Source: a virus
Strand: one strand, 5' to 3'
DNA length: 64,000 nt
Virus record (IMG/VR): IMGVR_UViG_3300045135_002615
Span: 186,001-250,000 of that record
Shown: piece after piece, positions 4,837 to 47,354 of the stretch
How positions within the stretch are numbered: the stretch's first letter is position 1
How the letters are laid out: every line of letters begins with the position of its first letter
Translations under genes and position numbers: made by a program
Notes under the pieces: generated by a model
The model's input: only the letters and a program-made list of their open reading frames with translations
Told to the model about the DNA's origin: nothing
The model's database searches: none

Positions 4837-4872
4837 TGAGGTGCATGGGAGATATTCACATAGGTGGTCACC

Positions 4873-6492
4873 ATGAAGATAGCACATCAGATTTCAGACC
4901 TAGAGTTAAGACTCGCGAATCTTGAGAAAGAAGCGGGCATTGGATCATGGGTGGCAGAGTTCTTTGAAGACCGACCAACTTCAGCGGATTTGATACGGGG
5001 TAAGTACTTCTCTAAAGCTAACATCTCAGAGGTAAAGATAGATAACCTCATCTTGGACGGTAAAGACTTCAGGGGTGCTAACTTTCATCGCTCTTCAATG
5101 AAGTCCACCAAGGCAAAGGGAGCGTCTTTTAAGGGGGCGGGTATGTCGTGGGTAGACCTGAGTGGGTCTGTCTTTAATGGGTGTGACTTTACGGGCGTTG
5201 ATTTCAGGTTTGCCAACTTGAACAATGTCACGTTCAATGGGTGTTCCTTGAAAGGTGTGAAGCTCCACTCTTTAAGGGGTGCCGTCGGCGTTAAAATACT
5301 CAACAGCAATATAGAGGGCTTGACCATCATTGGAGGTGTTTTTAAGAGCCCTATACTCCCTCCCCTTAAGGGGGCATCCTTAAAGGGGGCTTCTTTTGAA
5401 GATTGTGCTCTTTCAGATGTAGAGAGTCCTGTCTCCTGTTCGTTTTACAATTGTGAGATAAATGGTCTGACGGGTGATGTCTTGAGTTCTAAGACGAATC
5501 GGTGTAAGGTTAAGGGTCTTAACCTTACCTCAGCCCAGAACACTCTATTTAAGGGTCTGATTGTGGAGGGTAAGGCTAAGATCAATAAGGGTGTTTCTCT
5601 TAGGTTCTCAGGTGTTCAGTTTATGGGTCCTAGTTTGACTCTAAATTTAATTAGTTCAGTGTTGTATGGTGTGACCTTTAGCAAGTGCTTCGTCTCCAAT
5701 ACCAACATCAAGGACTCAAAAGGAAAGATCGTTATCAGGAGTTGCGAGGGACTTGTTGATTTTAGAAACTGCTCTTTCCCGAACTCTCGGATCGAGAAGT
5801 GTAAAATATCAATGGGTGTCACTGACTTGGACTTGAGTGGTTCTCAGATTGTTAATAATGATCTGAGGTTCACAGGGGCTTCTGATTTAGATGTGACGGG
5901 TGCTGACCTTTCAGGCTCAGAGATTAGCGGGCTCATATACTCCGCAGAGATGAACCCCTCAGATTTTGATCAGGCTCTCATGTCTTTACGAGGTATTCTT
6001 GATGACCCAGGTACACTTAAGGGGTACATGGGTCTAGTCAAAACGATGCACCAAACAAAGGCGATCAAAGCAGAAGTCATTGAGAGAATGGAACGTCATT
6101 ATGACAAAAAGTTCACATCTCTCCGCCCTGAAAAGGAAGAGAAGCTCTTTGTGTTCATCTCTTATCTCAAGTATATAGACTCAGAGCTAAGCCTGATAAG
6201 AGAACTTAGTGGACCCCAACCCCATATTGAGAGCATTGAAAAAATGAATGACCTCCTTGAAGAGAGTACTTCAAACTCTCACAAGAAAGTAGACATTCTT
6301 TTAGGTATCTATCAAGACTATAGTGTACAAGAGCTCTCAGACCTCCTCACTGAAAGAGGGATGAGAAATAGATTACCCTCTGAAGGGCGATCTCTTGACC
6401 TCATATTCCTTAGAGTTGCTATGTTAGCTCTTAATGTTAATGAAAGAGAGCTCATCAAATATCTCAAGGAAGTCCGACCCCTATTTAAGTGA
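4873..6492 (+). CDS. Coiled-coil-tagged pentapeptide-repeat protein
   Basis: This protein has 539 residues from ATG 4873, which has TAGGTGG six bases upstream; an in-frame GTG at 4864 lies inside that site. Residues 1-22 (MKIAHQISDLELRLANLEKE) carry the short coiled-coil tag shared with other proteins here. Residues ~45-355 are pentapeptide repeats of the A(D/N)LxG type (FRGANF, ASFKGAGM, CDFTGVDFRFANL, TGADLSGSEIS), which form a right-handed quadrilateral beta helix. The last ~170 residues are helical. Pentapeptide proteins can mimic DNA or act as binding scaffolds; no specific role can be read. A second pentapeptide protein is encoded at 61230. Confidence 0.8.
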   Translation: MKIAHQISDLELRLANLEKEAGIGSWVAEFFEDRPTSADLIRGKYFSKANISEVKIDNLILDGKDFRGANFHRSSMKSTKAKGASFKGAGMSWVDLSGSVFNGCDFTGVDFRFANLNNVTFNGCSLKGVKLHSLRGAVGVKILNSNIEGLTIIGGVFKSPILPPLKGASLKGASFEDCALSDVESPVSCSFYNCEINGLTGDVLSSKTNRCKVKGLNLTSAQNTLFKGLIVEGKAKINKGVSLRFSGVQFMGPSLTLNLISSVLYGVTFSKCFVSNTNIKDSKGKIVIRSCEGLVDFRNCSFPNSRIEKCKISMGVTDLDLSGSQIVNNDLRFTGASDLDVTGADLSGSEISGLIYSAEMNPSDFDQALMSLRGILDDPGTLKGYMGLVKTMHQTKAIKAEVIERMERHYDKKFTSLRPEKEEKLFVFISYLKYIDSELSLIRELSGPQPHIESIEKMNDLLEESTSNSHKKVDILLGIYQDYSVQELSDLLTERGMRNRLPSEGRSLDLIFLRVAMLALNVNERELIKYLKEVRPLFK

Positions 6493-9565: not shown

Positions 9566-10093
9566 ATGAGAGATAAGATTAGTCACCTAGAAGCCCGTAT
9601 TGCACTTCTTGAGCGTTCTTCTTCGGATCGCTTCCGTCCGAGTGATCCTGAGCCCGACCCTTCATGGCAACACACGTCCCCCAATGATATTGATGTACGC
9701 GGTCCCGCTGACCGCCCAAATGCGACACCTTCTGAACTGTGGGAGGAGATGAAAAACTACATGGTGGAGAATGGACTTGGTCGTGTTAAGGCTACGCCAG
9801 GCACTGTTTCCTTCTACCTCTTTTACTACCTAGACCCCGAACAATACCTAGACCCCGACCAAGCTAACTATTACCGAGGTCGCGAGCTTGCTGAAATCTT
9901 CGCCAGGATTGTCAGGAACAAAAGAGGATGGACTGACAGAGGATGGACTGCGAGGCAGCTTGGTGGGGACAAGGTACGGGTCACCAAAACCAAAGGTAGA
10001 GCTATTTACAGGGGTGAGCGTATCCATGTAGAAGGAGAAGCCATTTTCAGGGTCACTATCAAAAATGATTGGATCACCATCCACAAGCCTTAA
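9566..10093 (+). CDS. Coiled-coil-tagged hypothetical protein
   Basis: This is a 175-residue protein. Residues 1-17 (MRDKISHLEARIALLER) are the shared tag with heptad spacing of Ile and Leu. A Pro-rich linker follows (PSDPEPDPSW), then a globular region (ELWEEMKNYMVENGLGRVKA; FYLFYYLDPEQYLDPD) and a C-terminal beta-rich end. No family is recognised. AAAGGAGG precedes the ATG. The first ~50 bases of its coding sequence are almost identical to those of the next gene (10104), while the rest differs. Confidence 0.7.
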   Translation: MRDKISHLEARIALLERSSSDRFRPSDPEPDPSWQHTSPNDIDVRGPADRPNATPSELWEEMKNYMVENGLGRVKATPGTVSFYLFYYLDPEQYLDPDQANYYRGRELAEIFARIVRNKRGWTDRGWTARQLGGDKVRVTKTKGRAIYRGERIHVEGEAIFRVTIKNDWITIHKP

Positions 10094-10103
10094 GGAGACA
10101 TTT

Positions 10104-10670
10104 ATGAGAGATAAGATTAGTCAACTAGAAGCCCGTATTGCACGTCTTGAGCGAGAGTCTAAGGAGAAGTATCCTTGGGACGATTGCATCAAAGATCAGA
10201 TGGAGCAGTACGGGGACAAAGAGACTGCTGAGAAGGTCTGTGGCAAGATCAAGGCACAGTCTCAGGGTAAGAAGGCATCAGATGCGGATCGAATGAATGT
10301 GTTCGTAGGCTCTCTCAAACAGCAGCTACCTCGTGACATCAAGATTGAGGTCTCTGTAGTTGACCGTGAGTCTCATGGCACTACTTATTCTGTTAGTATC
10401 TACCCTTTCAATCCGAATATCTATGATCGCATGGACCTTTTGCGTTTCAAGGGTGATCCAAGACGCTCCGCACCTGCCACCCCTGCGGCTAAGGCTTCCA
10501 ATCGTAAAGCTGCCAACGCTATTCGTAAGGCATTGAAGTTGTTCAATGATGACATTAGACTGCTCAATGACTATAGCTATGAAAAGCCAACTTTGAGGAG
10601 ACCAAGAGTTGGTCCAGCGTACTACGATGGTGTTGCACACGAGATTATCGTCCTCGCTTACAATGTCTAA
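10104..10670 (+). CDS. Coiled-coil-tagged protein with DQMxxYGxxExAxxVCGxIK motif
   Basis: This protein has 188 residues from ATG 10104, chosen because TAAGGAGA lies directly before it and the tag begins there (MRDKISQLEARIARLERES). After the tag comes WDDCIKDQMEQYGDKETAEK-VCGKIKA, a short Cys-containing helical motif I associate with several phage proteins, then an Ala-rich helix (AKASNRKAANAIRKALKLF) and a beta-rich C-terminus. Function is unknown. The stop codon of the upstream tagged gene overlaps its ribosome site. Confidence 0.7.
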   Translation: MRDKISQLEARIARLERESKEKYPWDDCIKDQMEQYGDKETAEKVCGKIKAQSQGKKASDADRMNVFVGSLKQQLPRDIKIEVSVVDRESHGTTYSVSIYPFNPNIYDRMDLLRFKGDPRRSAPATPAAKASNRKAANAIRKALKLFNDDIRLLNDYSYEKPTLRRPRVGPAYYDGVAHEIIVLAYNV

Positions 10671-13466: not shown

Positions 13467-14129
13467 ATGATACTAGGACTAGACCCCTCGCTCAGAAACT
13501 TTGGGTGGGTATTGATTGACGATGACGGCTCCTTTATGGACAAGGGTATGATGTCTACCTCAGCTAAGGAGGTCTTCATCGAGAGATACATATACCTCCG
13601 AGAAGGCTTAAGGGAGATCATTCAGAAGGTTCGGGCAGATCATCCTGATAACACACTCAAGGTCGGTATTGAGTCTCCGATCTTCAATGACCTGTACTCA
13701 GAGGGTATGTATGGACTATTCCTCTACTCTAATGAGGCTCTCATGCTTGAGAAGGTGGACACTGTCTACTTGACTCCCAACCAAGTGAAGGCTCATGCCC
13801 ATGCCTTCTTAGGTCGCCCAAAAGGTTGGAAGATGCTCAAAGCAGACATGGTGGATGCTGCGAAGCAAGCTACACAAGGTCAGACAGGTGCGAATAGGTG
13901 GAACCACCACCAAGCGGATGCCTTCTGGGTAGGTCGAACTGCGGCGAGGTTTTGGGCTCTCGTTGATGGTGACATAGAGTCCTCCGACCTTACCGACTTA
14001 GAGCGTAAGCACTTCTCAGACCTTGATCGCTATGTTAAGGGTAAGAAGGCAGGCAAGGTAAAGCGTATGGGTATTACACATAAAGAGAATGACCGCTTCT
14101 TCAGGTGGTCGGACGAGGGCAATAACTAA
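13467..14129 (+). CDS. RuvC-like Holliday junction resolvase
   Basis: This 220-residue protein has the RNase H-fold resolvase pattern: first Asp in ILGLDPSLRNFGWVLI (residue 6), Glu in KVGIESPIF (~74), and the final acidic pair in NHHQADAFWVGR (~150). The middle has TPNQVKAHAHAFLGRPKGWK, typical for phage RuvC-like proteins with a Lys-rich DNA-contact loop. It would cleave recombination or replication intermediates before packaging. The final ~50 residues are a basic tail (YVKGKKAGKVKRMG). It overlaps the first methyltransferase by one base (TAATG), so they are co-translated. Confidence 0.82.
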   Translation: MILGLDPSLRNFGWVLIDDDGSFMDKGMMSTSAKEVFIERYIYLREGLREIIQKVRADHPDNTLKVGIESPIFNDLYSEGMYGLFLYSNEALMLEKVDTVYLTPNQVKAHAHAFLGRPKGWKMLKADMVDAAKQATQGQTGANRWNHHQADAFWVGRTAARFWALVDGDIESSDLTDLERKHFSDLDRYVKGKKAGKVKRMGITHKENDRFFRWSDEGNN

Positions 14130-14890
14130 TGGAGAACCAAATTTTTAATGAGTCCTGTTTAGACACCATGAGCCGTATGGGAGAGGGGACTATAGACTTA
14201 GTGGTTACAAGTCCCCCTTACTTTAACGCCCGCGAGTACAGCCAATACTCTGATGTCTCGTCTTATATGGAGACGATGAAAGAAATCTTTACAGAGGTTT
14301 ATCGGGTCTTGGGTGAGGCTAGGTTTCTAGCGGTCAATATATCCCCCGTCTTAGTCTCAAGAGAGAAGAGGAATGATGAGAGTAGGCGTATCCCTCTACC
14401 CTTCTACTATGTGCCTATGCTTGAGGAGATAGGTTTCTTATTTCTTGAGGACATTATATGGAAGAAGCCTGATGGGGCTGTGTACAACAGAACAGGGAAA
14501 TTCTCAACGCACCTCCGACCTCGTGCTTACAAGCCTAACTTGGTGACTGAGTATATCCTTGTGTTTCGTAAGCCGTCTGAGAAAATCTTAGACGCTTATC
14601 TCAAGGTGGGGTCACTTGTAGGGGAGAGTTATGAACGCACAAATGTGTGGGAGATGAACCCTGAGACACACAGCGACCACTCGGCTCCTTTTCCCGAAGC
14701 CCTGCCCTATAAGCTCATCGAGTACTACTCTTACGAGGGTGAGCTCGTATATGACCCCTTCTTAGGGTCAGGGACTACCGCTAAGGTGGCTAAGATGACC
14801 AAACGGAAGTACCTCGGCTCAGAGATCAATGGAGATTACTTCAAGATAGCCCAAAAGAGGATAGACCAAACACAGGAGTACTTCTTCTGA
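14129..14890 (+). CDS. DNA methyltransferase, beta class (copy 1 of a tandem pair)
   Basis: This is a 253-residue SAM-dependent amino-methyltransferase that methylates adenine N6 or cytosine N4. Motif IV is LVVTSPPYFNAREYS near residue 28, and motif I (SAM binding) is near the end, DPFLGSGTTAKVAKM, so the order is the permuted beta class. Between them lies the target-recognition region (EEIGFLFLEDIIWKKPDGAV; FSTHLRPRAYKPNLVTEYIL). The first ~30 and last ~45 residues are almost identical to the next gene, while the middle is different. It probably protects phage DNA from host restriction. Confidence 0.88.
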   Translation: MENQIFNESCLDTMSRMGEGTIDLVVTSPPYFNAREYSQYSDVSSYMETMKEIFTEVYRVLGEARFLAVNISPVLVSREKRNDESRRIPLPFYYVPMLEEIGFLFLEDIIWKKPDGAVYNRTGKFSTHLRPRAYKPNLVTEYILVFRKPSEKILDAYLKVGSLVGESYERTNVWEMNPETHSDHSAPFPEALPYKLIEYYSYEGELVYDPFLGSGTTAKVAKMTKRKYLGSEINGDYFKIAQKRIDQTQEYFF

Positions 14891-15690
14891 TGGAGAACCA
14901 TATTTTTAACGAGACTTGCTTAGATACCATGAGCCGTATGGGAGACAACTCCATAGACCTAGTGGTCACTAGCCCACCCTATGATAATCTCAGAACCTAT
15001 GATAACGACATAGATCAGACATGGGGTGAAACGGTTTGGAAGCCCATCATTTCTGAACTCTCTAGGGTAATCAAAGAAGGTGGTGTTATCGTTTGGGTTG
15101 TGAATGATGCCACCATTGATGGGGATGAGACAGGTACGAGCTTCAAACAGGCACTCTACTTTAAAGAGTGTGGTTTGAAGCTGTATGACACTATGATCTT
15201 TCAAAAGTCAGGGTGTGCCTCTCCTAGTAAGAAGAGGTATTACCCTTCTTTTGAGTATATGTTTGTATTCTCAAAAGGTCACCCTACTACATTTAACCCA
15301 ATCTTAGATCGGGAGAACAAGTGGAGAGAGAGATGGGGGAAGAAGCGAAAGAAGAGAAAAAAAGATGGTTCTTTCGGAGCAGACTATGACACCAAAGAAG
15401 CCCCTCAATTTGGTATGAGATATAACATATGGAAGTACCATCAGGGCTTCCAACGAAGCGGAGAGGATATCTTCGAGCATCCTGCCACATTTCCCGAAAA
15501 CCTAGCCCACGACCATATTATCTCTTGGTCTAACGAGGGAGATGTAGTTTACGACCCATTCTTAGGGTCTGGGACTACCGCTAAAATGGCTAAGATGACC
15601 AAACGTAAATATCTCGGTTCAGAGATCAACGCGGATTACTTCAGGTTAGCCCAAAAGAGGATAGATCAAACACAGGAGTACTTCTTCTAG
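14890..15690 (+). CDS. DNA methyltransferase, beta class (copy 2 of a tandem pair)
   Basis: This 266-residue protein has motif IV in LVVTSPPYDNLRTYDND and motif I in DPFLGSGTTAKMAKM. Its start (MENHIFNETCLDTMSRMG) and its end (AQKRIDQTQEYFF) copy the upstream gene. The middle is quite different (GVIVWVVNDATIDGDETGTS; GCASPSKKRYYPSFEYMFVF) and includes a Lys/Arg-rich loop around residues 145-160. The likely story is tandem duplication followed by exchange or divergence of the recognition domain, giving a second DNA target. It starts one base into the upstream stop codon (TGATGG). Confidence 0.88.
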   Translation: MENHIFNETCLDTMSRMGDNSIDLVVTSPPYDNLRTYDNDIDQTWGETVWKPIISELSRVIKEGGVIVWVVNDATIDGDETGTSFKQALYFKECGLKLYDTMIFQKSGCASPSKKRYYPSFEYMFVFSKGHPTTFNPILDRENKWRERWGKKRKKRKKDGSFGADYDTKEAPQFGMRYNIWKYHQGFQRSGEDIFEHPATFPENLAHDHIISWSNEGDVVYDPFLGSGTTAKMAKMTKRKYLGSEINADYFRLAQKRIDQTQEYFF

Positions 15691-16549: not shown

Positions 16550-17050
16550 ATGTGGAGGAATGGCAAGGGAGATAAAGTGACCCTTACAGATGTTCTCTCA
16601 TTTGTTGAGAAGGCTCATGCAGTAGGGTCACAGGTAGTAGTTGGTACAGATAGTCAGCCTTTCAATCATGGCACTTTCTCTGTGACCGTAATCGCATTCC
16701 TCTCTAGTGATCGCTCCGTGCATGGCAGGTACTTTTACTTAGAACACTCAGAGCTGACTAAACACCACAATCTTTTTGAGAGGATTTATCACGAGGTGAG
16801 CCTCACGATAAACCTACTACATGAGATCAAGCATTTGACCCCTATAGAGGACATAGAAGTCCATATAGACGTGAGCCCTGATAATGGGAAAACAAAGACC
16901 TCACGTTGGTCAAATACCCTTGTTTCGATGGTTAGAGGGTATGGCGTTCGTGAGGTCTGTGTGAAGCCTTCTTCTTGGTGTGCTTCTAAGTTAGCAGATG
17001 CTTACACCAAGAAGAGGAGTATTCGTGTACTGAGGAACAGGGCTCAATAG
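16550..17050 (+). CDS. YkuK/DUF458-family RNase H-fold protein
   Basis: This 166-residue protein matches the family's length and motif order: VVVGTDSQPFNHGTFSVTVI (first catalytic Asp), EDIEVHIDVSPDNGKTKTS (second Asp with GKT) and LVSMVRGYGVREVCVKPSSW-CASKLAD (C-terminal Asp). The family is predicted to have an RNase H-like fold, but its substrate is not established. A GGAGGTG site precedes the ATG. It converges with the tagged gene at 17044, overlapping by seven bases. Confidence 0.72.
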   Translation: MWRNGKGDKVTLTDVLSFVEKAHAVGSQVVVGTDSQPFNHGTFSVTVIAFLSSDRSVHGRYFYLEHSELTKHHNLFERIYHEVSLTINLLHEIKHLTPIEDIEVHIDVSPDNGKTKTSRWSNTLVSMVRGYGVREVCVKPSSWCASKLADAYTKKRSIRVLRNRAQ

Positions 17051-17460
17051 TCGAAGTCTAGGGAGATCTCCAAGAGCTTGATCTCATCCTCTTCGAGAGG
17101 CTCACCGAGTACACTGATCACCATCTCGTAACGGAAGGTCACATCGGGGTCTCCCTCTTCGGGGTAATCTTCACTGTACGCTTTGACTTCCATAGAGTCG
17201 TCATCAGCCCAGTTAACCCAACCAAGATCCTTTAATCTCTCCTTCTTGATAAAGGAGAGTAGGTCTTCAAGGCTCTTGAACTTCTGCTTACGGTACATGG
17301 TGGCATAATCCTGCTCATAGTCACCGCTACCATCAGGGGAGAACCTAGTCTCTACGGAATAGACTGAAACCTCGAACCTATCCTTAGCGGGTTTCCCCCT
17401 AAGAGTCTTTTTTTCAAGGCGGGCAATGCGGCTCTCTAGCTCACTTATCTTGTTGATCAT
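17044..17460 (-). CDS. Coiled-coil-tagged acidic protein
   Basis: This is a 138-residue protein. Residues 1-17 (MINKISELESRIARLEK) are the shared tag. The rest is acidic and probably alpha/beta (DRFEVSVYSVETRFSPDGSG; FKSLEDLLSFIKKERLKDLG; RYEMVISVLGEPLEEDEIK) ending in LDFDY. No known family is apparent. A GGAT/AAAGGA site lies before the ATG, and a weak late-promoter-like element (AACTTATTTATAAAT) is 31 bases upstream. Confidence 0.7.
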   Translation of the reverse strand: MINKISELESRIARLEKKTLRGKPAKDRFEVSVYSVETRFSPDGSGDYEQDYATMYRKQKFKSLEDLLSFIKKERLKDLGWVNWADDDSMEVKAYSEDYPEEGDPDVTFRYEMVISVLGEPLEEDEIKLLEISLDFDY

Positions 17461-18959: not shown

Positions 18960-19511
18960 ATGAGAAGAATAGCAAAAGCAAACGTAACACCGATCAGACA
19001 GAGGACACAGTTCTCTTGCGTGTCTACTTCAACGTGTATGGCACTCAATGCGGTCGGTGTTAAGTGTACCGAGGACGAGGTTAATGAGGTTATCGGTGCT
19101 CGTCCCATGCAAGGTGCAAGGTGGGAAGAGGTGCTCGCATGTGCTCAGTATTTCGGGTGTAGGGCAACGCTTACGACACCTGCAACTCTCACCCAAGTTA
19201 AGGCTTGGACTGACGCAGGTAAACCTGTTCTCATCGCATGGAACCCAGAGGGGCGGGATTGGAGCCATGCAAGTCTTATCTTTGATGTGACGGGTGAAAA
19301 GGGAAGCTATGTCGTCCATGTAGCTGATCCTAACATCCCTAACCCTGACAAGACAACCCGTGAGGTTAGTGAGGATGAGTTCTACTCAAAGTGGTACGAG
19401 AAGTGGCCTAACTATTTAGTACGTCGCCCCGCTCTCATGATTGAGCGAGAGGTCTGTGAGAATGGTAGGCAACTTATGGCGAGTAAGATCGCGTCTAAGT
19501 ACCTACGCTAA
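18960..19511 (+). CDS. C39-like papain-fold cysteine peptidase
   Basis: This 183-residue protein begins with the C39-type signature: Gln and Cys in RQRTQFSCVSTSTCMALNAV (Cys ~20), His in GRDWSHASLIFDV (~102) and Asp in VHVADPNIPNPD (~121). C39-like peptidases cleave leader peptides; in phages the substrate is unknown, and it might process virion proteins. There is no membrane or ABC domain, so it is not a bacteriocin exporter. A late-promoter-like element precedes it. The activity is inferred from the spacing of Cys, His and Asp. Confidence 0.68.
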   Translation: MRRIAKANVTPIRQRTQFSCVSTSTCMALNAVGVKCTEDEVNEVIGARPMQGARWEEVLACAQYFGCRATLTTPATLTQVKAWTDAGKPVLIAWNPEGRDWSHASLIFDVTGEKGSYVVHVADPNIPNPDKTTREVSEDEFYSKWYEKWPNYLVRRPALMIEREVCENGRQLMASKIASKYLR

Positions 19512-19524: not shown

Positions 19525-19564
19525 CATAGGCATATGCAACTAGATGCCACCGTGAGGTATGACC

Positions 19565-20671
19565 ATGTCAGACATCTTCGATAAGATTACAAAAGACTTT
19601 CTACGCTCAAAGAGAGCTAACTTTGCTCAACCCCTTCGTCTCCAACCTGACTACGGCGAGAGGCAGGCTGAGCTTGACATCCAAGCACGCTTCCATGAAG
19701 GACCTCAAGGTCGCAAGGAGTTTAAGGAATGGATGGGAGATCAACCTAAAGATTTCCAAGAGGAGTGGGAAGCGAACACTGAGGAGTATGGGGATAAGTT
19801 CAAGAAGGCACGCTTCCATGAAGGACCTCAAGGTCGTAAAGAGTTTAAGGAATGGATGGGAGATCAGCCTGAAGATTTCCAAGAGGAGTGGGAGGCGAAT
19901 ACAGAGGAGTATGGGGATAAGTTCAAGAACGCCTCCGACTTCTTTGCTGAAGATCACCTACCTGGCTCATACATGAGCCGTCAGAATCTAAGAGACATTA
20001 ATGACATGTCTGAATTCATCGAGGAGGACATTGGAGAGGAGGAGCTAGAGGATTGGGTTGAGGATAAGATTTCCCATGCTCATGCTGACCTTAATGATGT
20101 GGCTCGTTATAGGGGCTATCGTGACCGCCACACTGAAGAGACGTTCAAGCAAGCAGCTACCTTCTTGGGTGGAGGTATTGAGAGCGATCTTTATGACGAG
20201 TATGACTTCGATGAGTTTGAAGATATGCCCATGTCACGCACAGCGGCAGCTTCGGGTCTTTATGGGTACACCAAGAGAGTTCAAGGGGACGTTGAGTCTG
20301 CTATCCGTAAGCTACAGAAGAAGGTGGACAGCCTAGCTCGTTTCGTAGAGTCTAAGCACCCTGAAGCGGGCTCATACTTTTCTGCAAGAGCAGAGAACGC
20401 AACTTGCCCCGCTTCAAAAGCGTTGAGTAGAGCGTGCTTGATTAACAAGGCACCGAGTAGAGTGCTCAATGGTCCTTACGGCTTTAAGTCTTCTGTGGCT
20501 AAGGCTTCTCAGAAGGCGATCTCGGACTTGATCCTTTACTCAGGCGAGGTTGCACATGGTCTATACCTCAAGGATAGAGCACATGTACCTTTCTTGAAGG
20601 AGCACCTTCGTAGGAAGCGTTGCCCTCTGACACGGCTCATTATCGAAGCTCTCCCTTCCGATGCTATCTAA
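19565..20671 (+). CDS. Acidic repeat protein, probable virion-associated
   Basis: This protein has 368 residues from ATG 19565 (GAGG seven bases upstream). The N-terminus has SKRANFAQPLRLQPDYGERQ, whose QPLRLxxDY core also occurs in the N-terminal arm of the major capsid protein. Two 41-residue tandem repeats follow (each starting ARFHEGPQGRKEFKEWMG), then an acidic region (EFIEEDIGEEELEDWVEDK), a coiled coil (VESAIRKLQKKVDSLARFV) and a basic C-terminal domain with paired Cys (ATCPASKALSRACL; RRKRCPLTRLI). It overlaps the outer-membrane protein gene by 11 bases. Function unknown; the capsid-like motif suggests packaging or assembly. Confidence 0.7.
   Translation: MSDIFDKITKDFLRSKRANFAQPLRLQPDYGERQAELDIQARFHEGPQGRKEFKEWMGDQPKDFQEEWEANTEEYGDKFKKARFHEGPQGRKEFKEWMGDQPEDFQEEWEANTEEYGDKFKNASDFFAEDHLPGSYMSRQNLRDINDMSEFIEEDIGEEELEDWVEDKISHAHADLNDVARYRGYRDRHTEETFKQAATFLGGGIESDLYDEYDFDEFEDMPMSRTAAASGLYGYTKRVQGDVESAIRKLQKKVDSLARFVESKHPEAGSYFSARAENATCPASKALSRACLINKAPSRVLNGPYGFKSSVAKASQKAISDLILYSGEVAHGLYLKDRAHVPFLKEHLRRKRCPLTRLIIEALPSDAI
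19685..19930 (+). repeat. Two 123-bp in-frame tandem repeats
   Basis: Units 19685-19807 and 19808-19930 differ at only about ten positions, mostly synonymous (one Lys to Glu change among the replacements), so the duplication is recent or under selection. Each unit encodes a charged, Trp-containing helical segment (KDFQEEWEANTEEYGDKFKK). Confidence 0.93.
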
Positions 20672-21389
20672 GATTTTTGGGCTCTTAGTCTTCTTCTTCC
20701 CTGTAGTCTGTCATGGGCAAGTGGTAGATGTTGAGACTAATAGAGAGACTACATCAGAGGGTCTACATGGCTCATTTGAGCTTGGTGCTTCTCTTCAGAA
20801 AGGCAACGTAGATGTCTTTCAGTATGCAACCGCCATACGGGTTGACTACTTGAAGGATGGGCATCACCTCTTTTTGATTGGCTCCACTCTGTATGGAGAG
20901 GATAAGGGTAAGGCTTTCCAAGATGAGTCTTATGGACACTTGAGATGGGCTCTGATGAACACACATGGTGTAGGTGGAGAGCTGTTCACTCAAGTGCAGG
21001 AGGCAAGGTTTAAGATGCTCTCCCTTCGCCAGCTTGTTGGAGGAGGTGCGAGAATGTCCTTCTTAAAGGGAAACTTCGCTATGGGTGTCGGCTGTATGTC
21101 TGACTATGAGCTCTTATCAAGTGGCTCTGATGGGCTTGTAGCTCGATGGAATACCTACTTGAGGGTGGCTACAGGAGGCGACCTTAAAATGGGTCTATTG
21201 GCTTATTTCCAGCCTCATATAACACAGCTTGAAGATTATCGAGTATTGAGCCAGGCATCAATAGAGTTCAAGATCGGTGAGGCTTTATCGGTTTCACAGG
21301 ATTTTGTTCACACCTACGACACTAGACCCCCTCAAGGTGTGGTTGTGTCTGATGTCCAAACCATCATTAAGCTAAAGGTCAAACTATGA
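20661..21389 (+). CDS. DUF481-like outer-membrane beta-barrel protein
   Basis: This 242-residue protein has a clear signal peptide: MLSKIFGLLVFFFPVVCHG, with cleavage probably before QVVDVE. The mature part reads as alternating amphipathic strands and matches the DUF481/YdiY pattern: GSFELGASLQKGNVDVFQYA, DESYGHLRWALMNTHGVGGE and ARFKMLSLRQLVGGGARM. It would be inserted in the host outer membrane through the host machinery. Its start lies in the end of the preceding gene, without an obvious ribosome site, so it is probably translationally coupled, and it overlaps the metalloprotease gene by four bases. A phage-borne protein of this type could alter surface receptors or exclude other phages (inference). 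Confidence 0.82.
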   Translation: MLSKIFGLLVFFFPVVCHGQVVDVETNRETTSEGLHGSFELGASLQKGNVDVFQYATAIRVDYLKDGHHLFLIGSTLYGEDKGKAFQDESYGHLRWALMNTHGVGGELFTQVQEARFKMLSLRQLVGGGARMSFLKGNFAMGVGCMSDYELLSSGSDGLVARWNTYLRVATGGDLKMGLLAYFQPHITQLEDYRVLSQASIEFKIGEALSVSQDFVHTYDTRPPQGVVVSDVQTIIKLKVKL

Positions 21390-22894
21390 GTTATCGACAT
21401 CTAAATGGTTGCACCATTGGAGACCATCAGGGGATCTATATGGGTGTTAATCTAAGTGTCCCAAAAGCCATTAACCTCGTCAAGGCTAAGATCAGTGTTT
21501 TTAAGTTTTATGTAAGTCAGCATGGTTCCCTGCTCAACTCCATACCTGCTCCCCATCAGCGTGTAAGTAACGCTGATATAGTCACCGTTGTTCTTCTTGC
21601 GGATTTTCTGTATCACAAGATTGACTTCCCTAAAGGGAAGGCGAGGCGTGTGAGGGCGATTAAGAACAAGTTGAAAAAAGCTAGCTTGAGATCTAGGGCT
21701 AATGGGAACATTAAGTGGTACGTTGCACGCATGTCTCATATTGAAGATATGTTAGAGCTACTGAAGTACCCGCTCAAGCAAGCCTCCTCACATAAGACAC
21801 TCGGTCCGTTCACGCTAAAGAACCCTATACACTTGAGTGACGATAAAGTATTGAAACTTGAGGCAGCCTGCAAGGAAGCATTAAGGCTTTGCACGAACAG
21901 CTTAGCTCCTAACTTTACTTCCTGTCTTTATGGGGACGTGACACTCACAGAGAAGATAGGCAGATCAGATTGGCTCGCGTGGTATCACTCTGCGAAAGAC
22001 GATATTACTCTTAAGTACTTTGATCACGCGAAGCGTCTCTTTATCCGTACCTTCATTCATGAGCTTGGTCATAGATACTATCGTAAGGTACTCCCTGCGG
22101 ATAAGAAGGCATTGTGGGCTAAGTATCACATCCTAGCCACTACTACACGGGTGGATATAAGAGATTGGGTGCAAAATCCCTTCGCGGAATTTTATGTTGG
22201 GTACGCGAGGACTAGGGAACAAATCTCAAGTACTCTTGAACCTGGCTTGACGAGGGCTCTCATACATAGTTTTGACTACGAAGGTGTTCGTTTCCTAACG
22301 GATAATGGAACCCTATTCGGACCCTTCGATATTAAATGGGTCAAGTCTACACTCCGCTCTAAAATGGGTCACCTTCCTTCTCAGTATGCGTCTACTTCGG
22401 CAGAGGAACACTTCTGTGAAGCATTGGCTTACAAGGCTATTGGTGAGCTAAGTAAATCTGCACTAGAGTCTTTCAACTCCATTATCATTGATGGGGCTCC
22501 CTCATCTCCTTCTCCGAGCATGGTATCAGAAGTAGCACCTCCCGCTCCTGTAGCTCCAACCCCTGAGCCAAAGAAGCCCAACCTACTCCGCACAGATCAT
22601 CAACATCGTGCGTGTCTAGAGTTAGCTGAGAGACTAGGTATCACTTACAAGGGAGGGGGTAACAAGTACGGCATCTTCATCTATGAGAATGTGGGCACAG
22701 CAACGAAGCACGCCTATATGTTCCTTGAAAGAAGCACCAACAACCTATTCCTACCTAAGACAGCAACCTCACCAAACACAAAGGTAAATCTCGGCAACTT
22801 GTCAGATAGTGATCTTGATGATCTTGTAAGTTTTAAGCGTATGGATAAGCTCCGCCCTAAATGGAGAACACAAGCGAAGATTAAAGGTGTGTGA
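21386..22894 (+). CDS. Large HExxH zinc metalloprotease-like protein
   Basis: This 502-residue protein has the zinc-binding motif RTFIHELGHRYYRK at residues ~225-238, and a downstream helix with a possible third ligand, ASTSAEEHFCEALAYKAIG (~335-353), as in gluzincins. The N-terminal ~150 residues are basic and helical. A Pro-rich linker (PAPVAPTPEPKKP, ~390) leads to a C-terminal ~100-residue domain (CLELAERLGITYKGGGNKYG). No signal peptide is present. Its ATGA overlap with the outer-membrane barrel gene suggests joint expression. Substrate unknown. Confidence 0.75.
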   Translation: MSYRHLNGCTIGDHQGIYMGVNLSVPKAINLVKAKISVFKFYVSQHGSLLNSIPAPHQRVSNADIVTVVLLADFLYHKIDFPKGKARRVRAIKNKLKKASLRSRANGNIKWYVARMSHIEDMLELLKYPLKQASSHKTLGPFTLKNPIHLSDDKVLKLEAACKEALRLCTNSLAPNFTSCLYGDVTLTEKIGRSDWLAWYHSAKDDITLKYFDHAKRLFIRTFIHELGHRYYRKVLPADKKALWAKYHILATTTRVDIRDWVQNPFAEFYVGYARTREQISSTLEPGLTRALIHSFDYEGVRFLTDNGTLFGPFDIKWVKSTLRSKMGHLPSQYASTSAEEHFCEALAYKAIGELSKSALESFNSIIIDGAPSSPSPSMVSEVAPPAPVAPTPEPKKPNLLRTDHQHRACLELAERLGITYKGGGNKYGIFIYENVGTATKHAYMFLERSTNNLFLPKTATSPNTKVNLGNLSDSDLDDLVSFKRMDKLRPKWRTQAKIKGV

Positions 22895-22897: not shown

Positions 22898-23362
22898 ATG
22901 GATAACGTAACCAAGATAGACAGACTTGTGGCTTGTGTTGAAGACCCTTCAAAGGTTTTCTATGAGTGGGACACAATCCTTGAGGCACGACCTATTCCAA
23001 CTTATTGGAAGCGTAAAGGGACAACGGTCACGCTCAGGTCTTTTGGACCTCAAGGTAATGTGATTAGCCTTCAGCCTTACACTCATCTATTAGGTATGGA
23101 CTACAAGATCAAGATCAAGGGGTGGATACAGACCCCTAATGCCTTTGTCTTTGTGGTTGACCCCTGTGGTTTGCCTTCTGATGTCACCGACCCATATCTA
23201 GTGGTAGCGATGTCGAGTGACATCCTTGACTATGATAGAGCACTTCGTATGATCCGATCAAGTGAAGTACACCCTTGTAACTTTGAGGTCACAGCCACGA
23301 TTGGTTATCGTGATCGGCTCAGGAGACAGGTCAGGTTTGATATACCCTCTGATATGGTGTAG
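22898..23362 (+). CDS. Hypothetical protein
   Basis: This is a 154-residue protein. The start, MDNVTKIDRLVACVEDPSKV, faintly resembles the coiled-coil tag (KIDRL) but lacks the repeat. The rest is a beta-rich domain (GTTVTLRSFGPQGNVISLQP; YLVVAMSSDILDYDRALRMI) ending with RRQVRFDIPSDMV. It begins three bases after the metalloprotease stop. No family is recognised. Confidence 0.65.
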   Translation: MDNVTKIDRLVACVEDPSKVFYEWDTILEARPIPTYWKRKGTTVTLRSFGPQGNVISLQPYTHLLGMDYKIKIKGWIQTPNAFVFVVDPCGLPSDVTDPYLVVAMSSDILDYDRALRMIRSSEVHPCNFEVTATIGYRDRLRRQVRFDIPSDMV

Positions 23363-23403: not shown

Positions 23404-23811
23404 ATGAAGAAAAAAGCATCAAGTCAGGCAGGGTGGTCTTTACTGACCAGTGGGGTGTCACAAGCGAGGGTGGAAGCACACATTGTGAGGATAGCCCTCA
23501 ATCAGATGCTTGACGCTCTCTCTAACTCTCCACTTAAAGAGGAGTTCTATCGCCTCTGTGGAGACAACCTAGAGGCACTCCCCTTACATCTGAGTAAGAT
23601 GGAGCGTCAGTTAGACAAGACCAACTATGCATTGATCACTATGGGTGGGGATTACTACCGACAGAGGCTGACCCATGAGGATAGAGAGTCAGTGGACATG
23701 GCAGCCAAGTATAATCCGACACCTTCACCCACGCTTACCAAGTCTTCAAGTATAGATGATCTTGAGATGAGGATTGCTTATTTGGAGGATTTGAGGCGTA
23801 AGGCTAAGTGA
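23404..23811 (+). CDS. Hypothetical protein with C-terminal coiled-coil tag
   Basis: This 135-residue helical protein (begins MKKKASSQAGWSLLTSGVSQ) ends with SSIDDLEMRIAYLEDLRRKA, the same I--LExRIxxLE heptad seen at the N-terminus of other proteins in this window. The tag at the opposite end argues that it is a portable binding element rather than a leader peptide. A strong AAGGAGA site is present. It converges with the nuclease gene at 23804, overlapping by eight bases. Confidence 0.7.
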   Translation: MKKKASSQAGWSLLTSGVSQARVEAHIVRIALNQMLDALSNSPLKEEFYRLCGDNLEALPLHLSKMERQLDKTNYALITMGGDYYRQRLTHEDRESVDMAAKYNPTPSPTLTKSSSIDDLEMRIAYLEDLRRKAK

Positions 23812-32961: not shown

Positions 32962-33216
32962 ATGTCTTTAGATAAAAGAAAACTAGAAGAAGTCTTTGGA
33001 GAAGCTGAGATGGCATTTTGGGATGCTGTCGCATCGTCTTTTCCTGAAATCAAAAGTGGAGATCTCTCTCCATCTGACTCTGCCAAACTTGAAAAAGCCA
33101 TGAAAGAGGCAATCCAATCTTGGTATGTGGGCAATCAGCCTGCGGGTGAATCAACCAGCCAGATTGTCCGTAATCTTGAGCGTAGGGTTGCCCGACTCGA
33201 AAAGTCATCAAGGTAA
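32962..33216 (+). CDS. Small protein with C-terminal coiled-coil tag
   Basis: This 84-residue helical protein (MSLDKRKLEEVFGEAEMAFW) ends with TSQIVRNLERRVARLEKSSR, the tag shared with other proteins but here at the C-terminus. It is flanked by the 18-bp inverted repeat and lies between two terminators, so it is an isolated unit. AAAGGAGG precedes the ATG. Function unknown. Confidence 0.7.
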   Translation: MSLDKRKLEEVFGEAEMAFWDAVASSFPEIKSGDLSPSDSAKLEKAMKEAIQSWYVGNQPAGESTSQIVRNLERRVARLEKSSR

Positions 33217-33895: not shown

Positions 33896-34177
33896 TCAGT
33901 AGAGGGTCTGAGAGTAGGCTCGGAGAAGTCCGAGCTTCTCCTCCGCCTCCAAAATGGCGAGCCAAGAATAAAATGCCTCATAACTGTCTTCCACTTCAAT
34001 GATCTCGCAATCAGTTAGCTCAAGGGCTTCCCTTGTGCTCTCGTCTGATCGCCCGCTCAGGCTTACTCGCTCCCTGGCGAGCTCGCCTGAGTAACAGATC
34101 TCGATGGTGGTGTCTTGGGCGGAGGCGACTGAGGAGAGGGCGGTGAGGGCGAGAAGTGTAGTTAGAATGGTACGCAT
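33896..34177 (-). CDS. Small exported protein (paralogue B)
   Basis: This 93-residue protein has a classical signal peptide: MRTILTTLLALTALSSVASA with cleavage before QDTTIE. The mature ~73 residues contain EICYSGELARERVSLSGRSD and ALELTDCEIIEVEDSYEAFY; the paired Cys and the LARE and ELTDCE elements match paralogue A at 33375. It is predicted periplasmic. Each paralogue has its own terminator and its own C-tract element, so the whole transcription unit was duplicated. Confidence 0.78.
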   Translation of the reverse strand: MRTILTTLLALTALSSVASAQDTTIEICYSGELARERVSLSGRSDESTREALELTDCEIIEVEDSYEAFYSWLAILEAEEKLGLLRAYSQTLY

Positions 34178-34213
34178 TGTTGTTTCCCTTTTGTGTGTTG
34201 TTGTTGCTTACAG

Positions 34214-34243
34214 GTATCAATGCCATCAGGGGGGGGTGTTTTT
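34214..34243 (-). promoter_or_regulatory. C-tract/CATTGATA element (copy 3)
   Basis: On the minus strand AAAAACACCCCCCCCTGATG leads to GCATTGATACCTGTAAGCAA, placed before 34177 as copy 2 is before 33707. Confidence 0.5.
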
Positions 34244-34245
34244 TT

Positions 34246-34258
34246 GGTTATTTATATA
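34246..34258 (+). promoter_or_regulatory. Weak late-promoter-like element GGTTATTTATATA
   Basis: It lies 42 bases before the start at 34300; it is less like the consensus than other copies. Confidence 0.3.
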
Positions 34259-34299
34259 TATACATTTGCATTAACCACCCTCTATTGGAGCAAAAAAAT

Positions 34300-34815
34300 A
34301 TGAGACACTTAACAGCAAGTCAGAAGATCGCTCACCTTGAGCATCGCCTCGCTCGTCTTGAAAGAAGAGCTACGCATTGGACTGATGTCTACCATCCGAG
34401 TGAGATGGTAGACGGCTACGTTGATGATATGGGCTACGAGAAGTACCCACCCAGCTATAGCCAAGGACCGGTATGTGACTCTATAGCAAGAGAGATGAGT
34501 CGCCGCCTGAAAAGGAAGGGTTATAATATCCAACATATGCCTGATTGGGTTGGGTATAGGATTCACCTCCCTTTGAATGGGATCACTTATGAGATGATAA
34601 ACTCAGATACTGATCCAAGTCTACCTCTCTGTAAAGAGTTAGTTCTCCAGGTAATGAAGGACGCAGGTCTTAAGGGTCATGTGTACTACAGGAGAGGGTC
34701 TCACTACTACAGGAAAGAGCTTGCGGGGGGTCGCTGTCTCCTTAGTATTAGTTGCTCACAAGATGAGGGTCTGAGCTTTGATGTAGACAGGGTGATAACC
34801 CGACGTAGGAGATAA
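34300..34815 (+). CDS. Coiled-coil-tagged hypothetical protein
   Basis: This protein has 171 residues from ATG 34300 (TTGGAG upstream); the frame extends further 5' but that part lies in the leader. It begins MRHLTASQKIAHLEHRLARL-ERR, the extended form of the tag also used by the next gene. The remainder is basic alpha/beta (DSIAREMSRRLKRKGYNIQH; ELVLQVMKDAGLKGHVYYRR) ending in RVITRRRR. No family is recognised. Confidence 0.7.
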   Translation: MRHLTASQKIAHLEHRLARLERRATHWTDVYHPSEMVDGYVDDMGYEKYPPSYSQGPVCDSIAREMSRRLKRKGYNIQHMPDWVGYRIHLPLNGITYEMINSDTDPSLPLCKELVLQVMKDAGLKGHVYYRRGSHYYRKELAGGRCLLSISCSQDEGLSFDVDRVITRRRR

Positions 34816-34839: not shown

Positions 34840-34874
34840 ACCACATCAGGCACCAACTAAAGGAGGAGATGTCC

Positions 34875-35243
34875 ATGAGACACTTAACAGCTAGTCAAAA
34901 AATCGCTCAACTTGAATCCCGTATCGCCCGTCTAGAGAAGCAAGCCTCTTTGAGAAGAGGTCTCGACAGGGAGGAGGAAACCGTCTTAGATGAAGTAATC
35001 CACCACTACAGACTCAGGCCACGAGACTATGAAGATGTCGAAATTAGTATTGAGGATCAGGTAGGGCGTGGGGAAGATAGGATCGTGCTCTATGAGGTGT
35101 CTCTTTTCAAAGAAGACGGGGATAGCTTTACTTGCTATGTCCTTTATGACGCTTACGAAGAATTGGTGGAAGGGTTTTACGATTACCAAGATGATTATGA
35201 AGCCCAAAGAGCCTTTGACTCACTAGTAGAGCGACACGCATAA
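34875..35243 (+). CDS. Coiled-coil-tagged acidic protein
   Basis: This protein has 122 residues from ATG 34875, eight bases after AGGAGG; the ATG at 34869 is too close to that site. It begins MRHLTASQKIAQLESRIARL-EKQAS, almost identical to the start of the gene at 34300. The rest is acidic (YEDVEISIEDQVGRGEDRIV; YDAYEELVEGFYDYQDDYEA) and shares no visible similarity with the neighbour. Thus only the tag was copied or conserved. Confidence 0.7.
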   Translation: MRHLTASQKIAQLESRIARLEKQASLRRGLDREEETVLDEVIHHYRLRPRDYEDVEISIEDQVGRGEDRIVLYEVSLFKEDGDSFTCYVLYDAYEELVEGFYDYQDDYEAQRAFDSLVERHA

Positions 35244-44997: not shown

Positions 44998-45642
44998 TTA
45001 GGAAGCTAAGAGCTCTTTTACAATTTGGTCGCAGGTAAGAGATCCTCTCTTCATGTCTACAAGGCTAATCTCAACCATGCGACCGTCCAAGAAAACTCTC
45101 AATCTAGGTCGGAATGGATGCTCAAGTACCATCTCACCACCTACTGCCACACCATGTCTTTCTAAGCGGCTCTTTATTTTATTAAACTGACTACTTGCTC
45201 TCTCCATAGCTATTTGAGCTTCAAAGTGTAATGTAAACAGTTTTTGTGTTCTACTTAAAGTCAAAGACCCTGAATCTAATGTGTGGGTGAGTACCATGCC
45301 CTTCACTCCGAAATCGACATGGACATCACCTCCTTCATTGGGTTGGCACACCTTACCTGCCAAAAGTATCGTGTGTCCCTTGTACAGCACTTTAGCGGAC
45401 AGGTGAAAGTTCTTGTCGTTCACTTTCACCTTTGCTGAATACACATCTCTTAGTGATTCCAATGTGGCTTCCACGTCACTTGCTATATCATCCCCTTTAA
45501 GAAAAAGGGGTATGTTTACAATCCCTCCCCTGTAGACTTTAAGTTCACCTTCAACATCTTTAATGTATAAGGCTGCCTTCTTCTCAAGGTGGCTGATCCT
45601 TTTTTCTAAATCATAGATTCGTTCCACAGCTGTCTTTCTCAT
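44998..45642 (-). CDS. Coiled-coil-tagged hypothetical protein
   Basis: This protein has 214 residues from ATG 45642 (AGGAG upstream). It begins MRKTAVERIYDLEKRISHLE-KKAALY, a tag variant with the same I/L heptad. The rest is beta-rich (YRGGIVNIPLFLKGDDIASD; VDFGVKGMVLTHTLDSGSLT) and ends VDMKRGSLTCDQIVKELLAS. It converges with the gene at 43884 with only four bases between the stops. No family is recognised. Confidence 0.7.
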   Translation of the reverse strand: MRKTAVERIYDLEKRISHLEKKAALYIKDVEGELKVYRGGIVNIPLFLKGDDIASDVEATLESLRDVYSAKVKVNDKNFHLSAKVLYKGHTILLAGKVCQPNEGGDVHVDFGVKGMVLTHTLDSGSLTLSRTQKLFTLHFEAQIAMERASSQFNKIKSRLERHGVAVGGEMVLEHPFRPRLRVFLDGRMVEISLVDMKRGSLTCDQIVKELLAS

Positions 45643-45754
45643 AGTTAACTCCTGTCTCCTATTCACTACAAGAGACCCTATAGATAATCTATCGTAAATT
45701 GGTCACCCCACCTCCGCATTGATATAAGTCCTTAAGATTACGAAAGGATATACA

Positions 45755-46372
45755 ATGCTTACACCCCAAGAGATTCTCTTTATCATCCTGTCCCTACTTG
45801 GGGCAGACAACGCTAAGGTCGATGATACAGCTAAAACCCGCATGGCTGAGCTGAGCCAAGCAATCTCTGACCATCAATCTGAGACAGTATCAGCACACAC
45901 GCTAATCGCGGTTAGCTTCGTTGAAGACCGCTTCTCCTATGACGGAGATCAAGGAGCAAACCACAAGGGTGCTTGTGGTCCTTATCAGCAGATCCCGAAG
46001 TGGGCTGCTGAGGAGGTCACTTGCTCCGACCTTGCAGACCCTCAAACTGCTACCCGTGTAGCAGTCAAGAGCATCAAATGGTTCTACAAGACCTTTGGTG
46101 AGAAGCTCGACACCCTCTGCCACTACAACGGTGGCATGGAGTGTGTTGGGGGTGCGGTTGACTACGCGGAGGATGTCAAGAAGACATACCGCAAGAGCAA
46201 GAGCCTTCTTAAGAGGTATCGCTCAAAGACACCCTCCCTCAAGACGACTATCAAGAAGGTTAAGACACGCAAAAAGAAGCGTGTCCACACCCCACCTCCA
46301 CCTACACTAGACTACGTTGGTCCCCCTCCTACCATCTATGGGGACTATGTTGGACCCCCTGACTCTATCTAA
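45755..46372 (+). CDS. Lytic transglycosylase/lysozyme-like protein
   Basis: This is a 205-residue protein. The catalytic-type segment is LIAVSFVEDRFSYDG (Glu ~54), followed by HKGACGPYQQIPKWAAEE and LCHYNGG ... YAEDVKKTY, the arrangement of SLT/goose-type muramidases that cleave the glycan strand. The C-terminal ~50 residues are very basic then Pro/Tyr-rich (KKVKTRKKKRVHTPPPPTLD; YVGPPPTIYGDYVGPP). There is a hydrophobic N-terminus (EILFIILSLLGADNA) that could serve for export. The genes that follow encode small membrane proteins, which suggests a lysis cassette. Confidence 0.72.
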   Translation: MLTPQEILFIILSLLGADNAKVDDTAKTRMAELSQAISDHQSETVSAHTLIAVSFVEDRFSYDGDQGANHKGACGPYQQIPKWAAEEVTCSDLADPQTATRVAVKSIKWFYKTFGEKLDTLCHYNGGMECVGGAVDYAEDVKKTYRKSKSLLKRYRSKTPSLKTTIKKVKTRKKKRVHTPPPPTLDYVGPPPTIYGDYVGPPDSI

Positions 46373-46382
46373 GGAGCCCCCC

Positions 46383-46541
46383 ATGAAGTTCAAAATCTGC
46401 TTAGTCCTCATTCTCATCATCAAAGCGGTACTCCTCATTACCACTCTCTCACAGCCAGTGGTTTTCTCTGCTGACCTCTCAAGTGAGAAGTTCCCAGAGC
46501 CTTGCGTTGAGTTCATCCCTCAAGACCGCAAGTGTCCATAG
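46383..46541 (+). CDS. Small signal-anchor protein, possible lysis accessory
   Basis: This 52-residue protein (MKFKICLVLILIIKAVLLIT) has one hydrophobic span, then a short periplasmic part with two Cys (EPCVEFIPQDRKCP). AAGGAG precedes the ATG by six bases, and it follows the lysozyme-like gene by 10 bases. Size and position recall spanin or holin partners, but there is no lipobox, so the role is inference. Confidence 0.6.
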   Translation: MKFKICLVLILIIKAVLLITTLSQPVVFSADLSSEKFPEPCVEFIPQDRKCP

Positions 46542-46613
46542 AAAAAAAAACTCCCCCCCCCCCTCCACTCATTAATATAAAGTAGTAAGAGGTAGTGGGT
46601 GAGGTTCCCTGAA

Positions 46614-46652
46614 CCACCTTCAACTAGATGTAACATTCCTAGTTGAAGGTGG
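46614..46652. other. Perfect 14-bp stem-loop
   Basis: CCACCTTCAACTAG (46614-46627) pairs exactly with CTAGTTGAAGGTGG (46639-46652), loop of 11 bases. No T-run follows. Confidence 0.8.
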
Positions 46653-46757
46653 AGGGTAGAGCCCCCCCACGAGTTGACCCACCCAACTAAGTGGTCAGCA
46701 TAGAGCGTCAAGCTCACAACTTGAAACATCATAGGAGTTAATACTCCACACTAAAGG

Positions 46758-46778
46758 GCTCCCAATATGGGAGCTTTT
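46758..46778 (+). terminator. Short intrinsic terminator
   Basis: GCTCCC, loop AATAT, GGGAGC followed by TTTTAG. Confidence 0.65.
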
Positions 46779-46804
46779 AGTTTATTTAGGGTAGGGCATC
46801 CACA

Positions 46805-46903
46805 ATGGATAAACTCATCTACCTATATGCGTCAGCGATCATTATTTCTGCTCTCGCTACTCACTACCTGCTAATCTCCCTCTTAATAAAAATCTTCTAC
46901 TGA
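46805..46903 (+). CDS. 32-residue membrane peptide
   Basis: This is a very short frame, starting MDKLIYLYASAIIISALATH and ending LLISLLIKIFY, almost entirely one hydrophobic helix. It lies 17 bases before the next gene and in the lysis/envelope cluster. The ribosome site is weak (AGGG), so expression is uncertain; small holin-like or membrane regulators look like this. Confidence 0.45.
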   Translation: MDKLIYLYASAIIISALATHYLLISLLIKIFY

Positions 46904-46919
46904 AATCTTAAGGAAAAAA

Positions 46920-47210
46920 ATGATTTACTTTATTATTCTTGGGCTAGTCACGCTCGGCGTAGGTCTTTACCACGATGATATTCGCATCTTCTTTGGTATC
47001 TTCATCATCGGCATGACTGCGATGGCTCATCGAGCAGAGGAGGTGGTGACCTTCTCTGTGTGTGAGACCGAGGCTCAGAAGTTCGCACCTGTGGAGCGAC
47101 ACGGTCTTGAGGCTCTTAAGAAGGCTTACCCCTCACTTCAGTGTGAGGAGGTGAAACTGAGCCGAAGTGAGGCTGCCCGAATCCGCGAGGCGATCATTAA
47201 AACTCGTTGA
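46920..47210 (+). CDS. Membrane protein with periplasmic Cys pair
   Basis: This 96-residue protein has two hydrophobic stretches at the start (MIYFIILGLVTLGVGLYHDD; IRIFFGIFIIGMTAMAHRAE), then a soluble region with two Cys (FSVCETEAQKFAPVERHGLE; YPSLQCEEVKL) and a helical end. AAGGAAAAAAATG gives the start. The position beside the small membrane genes suggests an envelope or lysis role; no family is recognised. Confidence 0.6.
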   Translation: MIYFIILGLVTLGVGLYHDDIRIFFGIFIIGMTAMAHRAEEVVTFSVCETEAQKFAPVERHGLEALKKAYPSLQCEEVKLSRSEAARIREAIIKTR

Positions 47211-47234
47211 CAGAGGTGTGCTCCTTAGTATAAT
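47207..47234 (+). promoter_or_regulatory. Consensus sigma70-type promoter for tRNA-Glu
   Basis: TTGACA at 47207-47212 and TATAAT at 47229-47234 are separated by 16 bases, and the tRNA begins 41 bases after. It overlaps the stop of the previous gene. Confidence 0.85.
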
Positions 47235-47275
47235 AGAGGTGCAGATAACGCCACCTCAAAAGAGGAACACATTCA

Positions 47276-47347
47276 GGTCCCATCGTCTAGTGGTCAGGAC
47301 ATCGGCCTTTCACGCCGAGAACACGGGTTCAAATCCCGTTGGGATCA
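47276..47347 (+). tRNA. tRNA-Glu (anticodon TTC)
   Basis: A 72-base cloverleaf: acceptor GGTCCCA with TGGGATC (one G-T pair), D-arm TCTAGTGGTCAGGA, anticodon stem and loop CGGCCTTTCACGCCG with TTC, T-arm CGGGTTCAAATCCCG, discriminator A. CCA is not encoded. It has its own promoter and terminator. Confidence 0.95.
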
Positions 47348-47354
47348 TTCTAAC

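Follow-up and report, generated by a model that had tools for sequence, protein, structure and literature searches.

What does a gene of a bacterial outer-membrane protein family do in a large phage? The question is raised by one ORF of the window, the whole 64,000-nucleotide stretch of DNA analysed here, which represents positions 186001-250000 of a 296,642-base virus record (IMG/VR IMGVR_UViG_3300045135_002615). The source record is that of a phage, with protease and capsid genes near the ORF: a head-maturation (prohead) protease-like gene lies at window position 27912 and a capsid-like gene at 31796 (match below the Pfam cut-off), the latter recurring with up to 97% identity in many IMG/VR contigs. 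A search of the record for terminase (PF03237) was negative. The ORF and its surroundings are as follows.

18960..19511, + strand: C39-like peptidase gene, two genes upstream of DUF481 (PF13529, 27.9 bits, cut-off 24)
19559..20671, + strand: family 1 gene, upstream of DUF481 and overlapping its start by 11 nt
20661..21389, + strand: gene for a predicted DUF481 outer-membrane beta-barrel, 242 aa (Pfam PF04338; 12-strand model; Z about 15 against 12-strand outer-membrane proteins)
20661..20717, + strand: presumed secretion signal, residues 1-19, with the mature protein from Gln20 and no lipobox (sequence reading; Gln20 invariant in phage alignment A2)
20760..21383, + strand: predicted barrel region, 12 strands, residues 34-241 (AlphaFold2 secondary structure, amphipathic strands)
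21386..22894, + strand: family 9 gene, downstream of DUF481 and overlapping its stop by 4 nt, with an invariant HExGH zincin-like motif
22898..23362, + strand: family 5 gene, a neighbour conserved among relatives
23404..23811, + strand: conserved neighbour gene, 59-71% identity in relatives

In the ORF list of the window, the gene begins with an ATG at 20661. Its product was matched by Pfam family DUF481 (PF04338) over residues 40-240 and profile positions 2-208 of 210 (E = 1.9e-15). With 57.9 bits against a curated cut-off of 21.1 bits and most of the profile covered, the protein is a member of this family. No other family reached E ≤ 0.1 in the Pfam scan, and the likeness to Lom that a sequence-only reading had drawn was not borne out by sequence. 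PHROGs returned no family for the protein (best E 0.095), sequence searches of solved structures found no relative, and a genome-level search identified this ORF as the only DUF481 match in the record.

The N-terminus (MLSKIFGLLVFFFPVVCHG followed by Q) was read as a single Lys, a hydrophobic core and a small residue ahead of Gln. Each of the 12 rows of alignment A2 opens with a hydrophobic stretch, after which come a small residue and Gln (Gln20, conserved in 12/12), and no lipobox was seen by eye in any of them; cleavage is presumed to occur before Gln20. A C-terminal aromatic residue on the last strand is common, though not universal, in outer-membrane barrels. The window protein lacks it, ending in KVKL (Leu), and the L146 protein ends in Glu, with Trp or Tyr in the other 17 of the 19 phage rows.

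The fold was predicted with AlphaFold2, using alignment A2 (12 phage sequences) as input. The model contains 12 strands between residues 34 and 241 (pLDDT 79.4, pTM 0.72), preceded by a low-confidence helix at residues 2-16, the presumed signal region. Foldseek comparison with the PDB gave outer-membrane proteins throughout the best 50 matches listed (best E 2.8e-7), with TM-scores to the query of at most 0.58 among the matches listed, and VIA-align 2 yielded Z-scores of 15.5 for AaaA, 15.2 for NalP, 15.1 for both Tsx and KdgM, and 14.8 for NanC. Polar and apolar residues alternate along the model strands of the window protein (z = 3.8; reached by 0/2000 within-strand shuffles). Among 12 homologues, ten gave 0/2000, L149 gave 1/2000 and L144 gave 47/2000, so that strand amphipathicity is well above shuffles in 11/12 sequences and weaker for L144. 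Chance as the source of the alternation was ruled out by these shuffles. The predicted structure has an even number of amphipathic strands, 12, closed into a barrel of the type typical of Gram-negative outer-membrane proteins. The table of a review (PMC4827864) also has an entry for DUF481, TCDB 1.B.75, and describes it as a putative 12-strand barrel. Pfam, predicted fold and conservation all support the earlier view of a phage-encoded DUF481 outer-membrane barrel, and the structure prediction proposed as a check of it returned a 12-strand barrel. That the gene encodes a barrel and belongs to the phage is, in our judgement, nearly certain.

Single-sequence searches (IMG/VR pattern scan; GenBank phages; plasmids, with the L136 protein) yielded nothing significant, and a protein search of 50,697 GenBank phage records gave no significant DUF481 match. 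Alignment-based scans of IMG/VR identified 14 contigs, then eight more and then one more. Including the window's record, the total is 24 phage records with DUF481, with near-copies among them (L146-L148; L144/L145; L140/L141). A family search found the gene in 7/50 kin phage records, which had been chosen from kin loci and were mostly the longer ones; among kin records of at least 200 kb it was present in 3/10 (4/11 if the window's record is included). Searching 25 of the 50 with a profile detected no further DUF481. Given this patchy occurrence, the gene is dispensable or replaceable. The earlier statement that phages rarely encode such barrels is overstated: 20 viral models in BFVD matched the DUF481 model at E ≤ 0.001, the best being named 'DUF481 domain-containing protein [uncultured Caudovirales phage]' (query TM 0.69, 16% identity) and others porin, OmpC or autotransporter barrel. 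The phage DUF481 barrel is thus not unique. Neither a phage DUF481 protein nor a lysis protein built as a barrel is reported in the available passages of open-licence papers (including PMC4827864, PMC7824862, PMC8594841, PMC9410366, PMC9723584, PMC5681696 and PMC9636201).

A branch with 99/99 support separates the 19 phage from the 15 bacterial sequences in the 34-row tree; a smaller tree agreed (97/98). The next branch (98/97) adds L190 and L191, obtained from the Myxococcota search and 36-37% identical to their best phage match. Because the tree is in fact unrooted (midpoint drawing), it does not prove a single origin in phages, though this is the simplest interpretation. The bacterial sample is narrow, consisting of Myxococcota and E. 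coli YdiY; 26/377 Myxococcota genomes reached E 1e-30 in the DUF481 scan, and two scans of bacterial genome contigs gave 0 and 1 locus. The best bacterial score was 198 bits versus 338-426 bits for other phages, a comparison biased by a profile made from phage sequences. Only the L136/L137 pair was unsaturated and informative, with dN/dS 0.10; the other pairs had saturated dS or near-identical sequences. Recent capture from the host is disfavoured by the tree and the bacterial scans, and the gene looks phage-owned.

The 24 records were assigned to genomic contexts. In context A (11/24; the window, L136-L142 and L146-L148), DUF481 directly follows the C-terminal part of family 1, often overlapping it, and is itself followed by family 9, the gene with the HExGH motif, in six of the 11. 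Family 1 has no Pfam or PHROG family above cut-off and no PDB relative, and family 9 neither a Pfam match nor a credible PDB match. The C39-like peptidase is found upstream of DUF481 in L136 too (25.3 bits). In context B (5/24; L143, L144, L145, L149 and L206), DUF481 comes after other conserved small genes and is followed in 5/5 by an Ntn-hydrolase-like gene (17.6 bits with Pfam AAT against a cut-off of 23.2; no PDB match). As their substrates are not known, the C39-like peptidase, zincin-like and Ntn-hydrolase-like genes were not counted as evidence for lysis.

Context C (7/24; L200-L205 and L217) comprises AT-rich contigs, with 28-32% G+C in the six measured, in which no probe genes of contexts A and B were detected (six of the seven in one probing, L217 separately). 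L207 has a context of its own (1/24). Five context C or L207 records were searched for a T4-type portal, which G433 and G436 (L200 and L203, the two long ones) carry; searching G000 and eight further records, its kin, gave no such portal, and a search of G433 and G436 for the window's capsid gene was negative as well. The different portal and capsid content means that the DUF481 gene, and with it the phage branch, is shared by at least two large-phage lineages that are unrelated.

In all seven context C contigs, a gene with a GH24 catalytic motif lies 9-14 bp upstream of DUF481 on the same strand; a narrower GH24 pattern matched four of them. Six of these lysozymes were scanned with Pfam Phage_lysozyme, two scoring above and four below the cut-off, and a profile of the six retrieved the T4 and P22 lysozymes from the PDB (best E about 2e-6). 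All seven (of 24 records) come from a single related group, and their lysozyme linkage represents a single conserved arrangement. The scan detected no GH24 motif close to DUF481 at the remaining loci that it covered, and the 63 ORFs neighbouring DUF481 at four context A and B loci include no glycan hydrolase or amidase family. A Phage_lysozyme search at genome level reached E ≤ 0.001 in 2/14 records and exceeded the cut-off in 0/14, and is therefore less sensitive here.

Just before the lysozyme block, L202, L203, L204 and L217 encode a protein in which two membrane segments and a coiled coil were recognised by eye; in L207 such a protein is encoded directly upstream of DUF481. Its Pfam matches are sub-threshold only, and its layout can be read as holin-like. 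A small lipoprotein-like gene is present within a few genes of DUF481 in L200-L202, L204, L207 and L217. Two kin contigs without DUF481 (G015 and G016, identical here) carry a 362-aa protein directly after family 1; its features are a membrane segment at the N-terminus, a coiled coil and Trp as the last residue.

L184 5019-6107, - strand: slot protein with spanin-like layout, at the position where kin phages have DUF481 (sequence reading)

Structure prediction for the G015 protein was uninformative (pLDDT 39), and the viral scan found the slot protein in no other contig.

Pfam and motif searches detected no lysis genes adjoining DUF481 in the window's own lineage. A possible lysis region, also with two tRNA genes in between, was noted at window positions 45755-50744.

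45755-46372: transglycosylase (SLT)
48121-48402: lipoprotein-like ORF, lipobox by eye
49800-50744: Amidase_2

The transglycosylase and amidase are 24-29 kb from DUF481. A role at lysis, as suggested from the sequence before, finds contextual support in related phages but none adjacent to the gene in the window's own lineage. The other suggested roles, in receptor change, exclusion or permeability, gain no specific support. Elsewhere in the window, a GroEL-like protein is encoded at 48386-49801 (- strand; phrog_5725, E 4e-24) and a glutamine synthetase-like protein of 335 aa at 57606-58613, with both domains above Pfam cut-offs. Two similar proteins are encoded in tandem at 14129-14890 and 14890-15690; both carry a TSPPY motif, which by eye suggests methylases.

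We tentatively propose, as a statement that in its entirety falls somewhat short of probable, that the DUF481 barrel constitutes a phage-specific branch, is exported and acts at the outer membrane in lysis or egress. The role in lysis or egress taken separately, to which the gene neighbourhood in related phages points, is likewise possible rather than probable. Export would run through the Sec pathway of the host, and host BAM would fold the protein into the outer membrane, where it may be active in the final phase of infection. There the barrel would partner the wall-degrading enzymes of the phage by permeabilising or weakening the outer membrane, whereupon the cell opens. The patchy distribution of DUF481, the restriction of the lysozyme linkage to one group and the distance of the window's transglycosylase and amidase count against this role. 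It is unlikely, on present evidence, that the barrel adds another type to the outer-membrane lysis proteins formed by spanins and disruptins, being inserted by BAM, paired with an endolysin and exchangeable in its slot with a spanin-like protein.

Conservation within the barrel bears on other roles. Barrel faces were assigned from the model strands and hydrophobicity. Invariant positions in 11 phage sequences amounted to 24/80 on the inward face versus 5/82 on the outward face (Fisher p = 7e-5). G48, N49, H93, R95, Q111, R123, R162 and D231 are identical in the 11 phage and eight bacterial rows, and the inward residues identical in the eight bacterial members also include M146, Y166 and Q184 besides H93, R95, Q111, R123, R162 and D231 (bacterial rows L151 and L166 were excluded from this alignment). 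Because bacterial DUF481 proteins have the same lumen residues, the conservation may mean an ordinary channel function. The phage would then supply a pore of the bacterial DUF481 type as a replacement channel to maintain osmotic or nutrient balance in its infected host, a role that we regard as rather unlikely. The polar lumen-facing residues conserved in phage and bacterial members are in line with it, as are the match of the fold to the narrow 12-strand channels KdgM, NanC and Tsx and the annotation of the E. coli member YdiY as 'acid-inducible putative outer membrane protein'. However, the available literature passages give no transport substrate for DUF481, and the neighbouring genes are hydrolases and unknowns, not transport or metabolism genes. 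The lumen conservation itself fits a pore used at lysis and an ordinary channel alike.

Superinfection exclusion at the outer membrane is a strategy of some phages, and the predicted surface location of the barrel would suit it: the protein could hide, compete with or alter a receptor and thereby block the adsorption of other phages. Barrel termini are periplasmic by the usual rule, and the more conserved DUF481 loops would therefore be extracellular. These presumed extracellular loops are 2-9 residues long in the model and contain residues also conserved in bacteria (GN; D..PP), where an arms race should have produced variable loops, and the conservation pattern favours a conserved lumen function over receptor-masking variation. 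Adjacency to lysozyme, moreover, suits a late gene. Exclusion or receptor masking is thus a doubtful role for this protein, although outer-membrane remodelling against superinfection, via LPS genes, has been proposed for large phages in a passage of PMC9723584.

Short shared sequences occur on other proteins of these phages. Many unrelated proteins of L200-L205, L207 and L217 begin with M[KR]ITESxLRxIIR or MNRKEYKLLVEGWxxFL-like stretches, which are perhaps capsid-targeting tags. The N-terminal stretch common to the context C lysozyme family is similar to a shared tag, for which reason the lysozyme might belong to the virion. In the window, 10/83 ORFs contain a short coiled-coil-like tag, L[EIM]xR[IVL][AS]xLE[KRD], mostly near the N-terminus (4864-6492, 9566-10093, 10065-10670, 17044-17460(-), 23404-23811, 32962-33216, 34177-34815, 34869-35243, 44998-45666(-) and 60635-61177(-)), where shuffling gives an expectation of 0.005, a flattering figure since the pattern was drawn from the same sequences; this tag might be a targeting or packaging signal. 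While such tags might direct other proteins of the same phage into the particle, the start of the DUF481 protein resembles a signal peptide and no tag is present, which makes a barrel carried in the virion, for instance to be injected, very improbable. That a gene of the bacterial DUF481 family was misassembled into a viral contig is scarcely credible, contamination and chance being rejected by the Pfam score, the occurrence in 7/50 kin records, the conserved neighbours on both sides and the separate phage branch.

Phages of two-membrane bacteria have three layers to open. If a folded barrel indeed carries out the outer step, as in the lysis reading, this would be a new lysis principle, and DUF481, a family for which the literature passages available state no function, would become testable. 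Even without a role in lysis, a phage branch of a bacterial outer-membrane family in unrelated large phages represents a selected trait in uncultured phages.

Compared with known systems, the protein resembles bacterial DUF481/YdiY (PF04338; TCDB 1.B.75) in its near full-length profile match, lumen residues and 12 strands, but the phage members form their own branch, the nearest sampled bacteria being 36% identical. With KdgM, NanC, Tsx, OMPLA and autotransporter barrels it shares strand number and fold (Z 12.3-15.5) at 4-10% identity, and a common fold shows no function. Lambda Lom is a phage-encoded presumed outer-membrane barrel, as are the phage barrels in BFVD, and the window protein is like them in this respect, whereas it has no match to the Ail/Lom Pfam family. 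Spanins consist of an outer-membrane lipoprotein (with lipobox) and/or an inner-membrane anchor with a periplasmic coiled coil; the DUF481 protein has neither lipobox nor coiled coil and is modelled as a barrel instead. Yet DUF481 lies directly behind a lysozyme gene in seven contigs, and may act at the same step as spanins and disruptins. What is new here is a phage-specific DUF481 branch across two lineages, together with its lysozyme operon.
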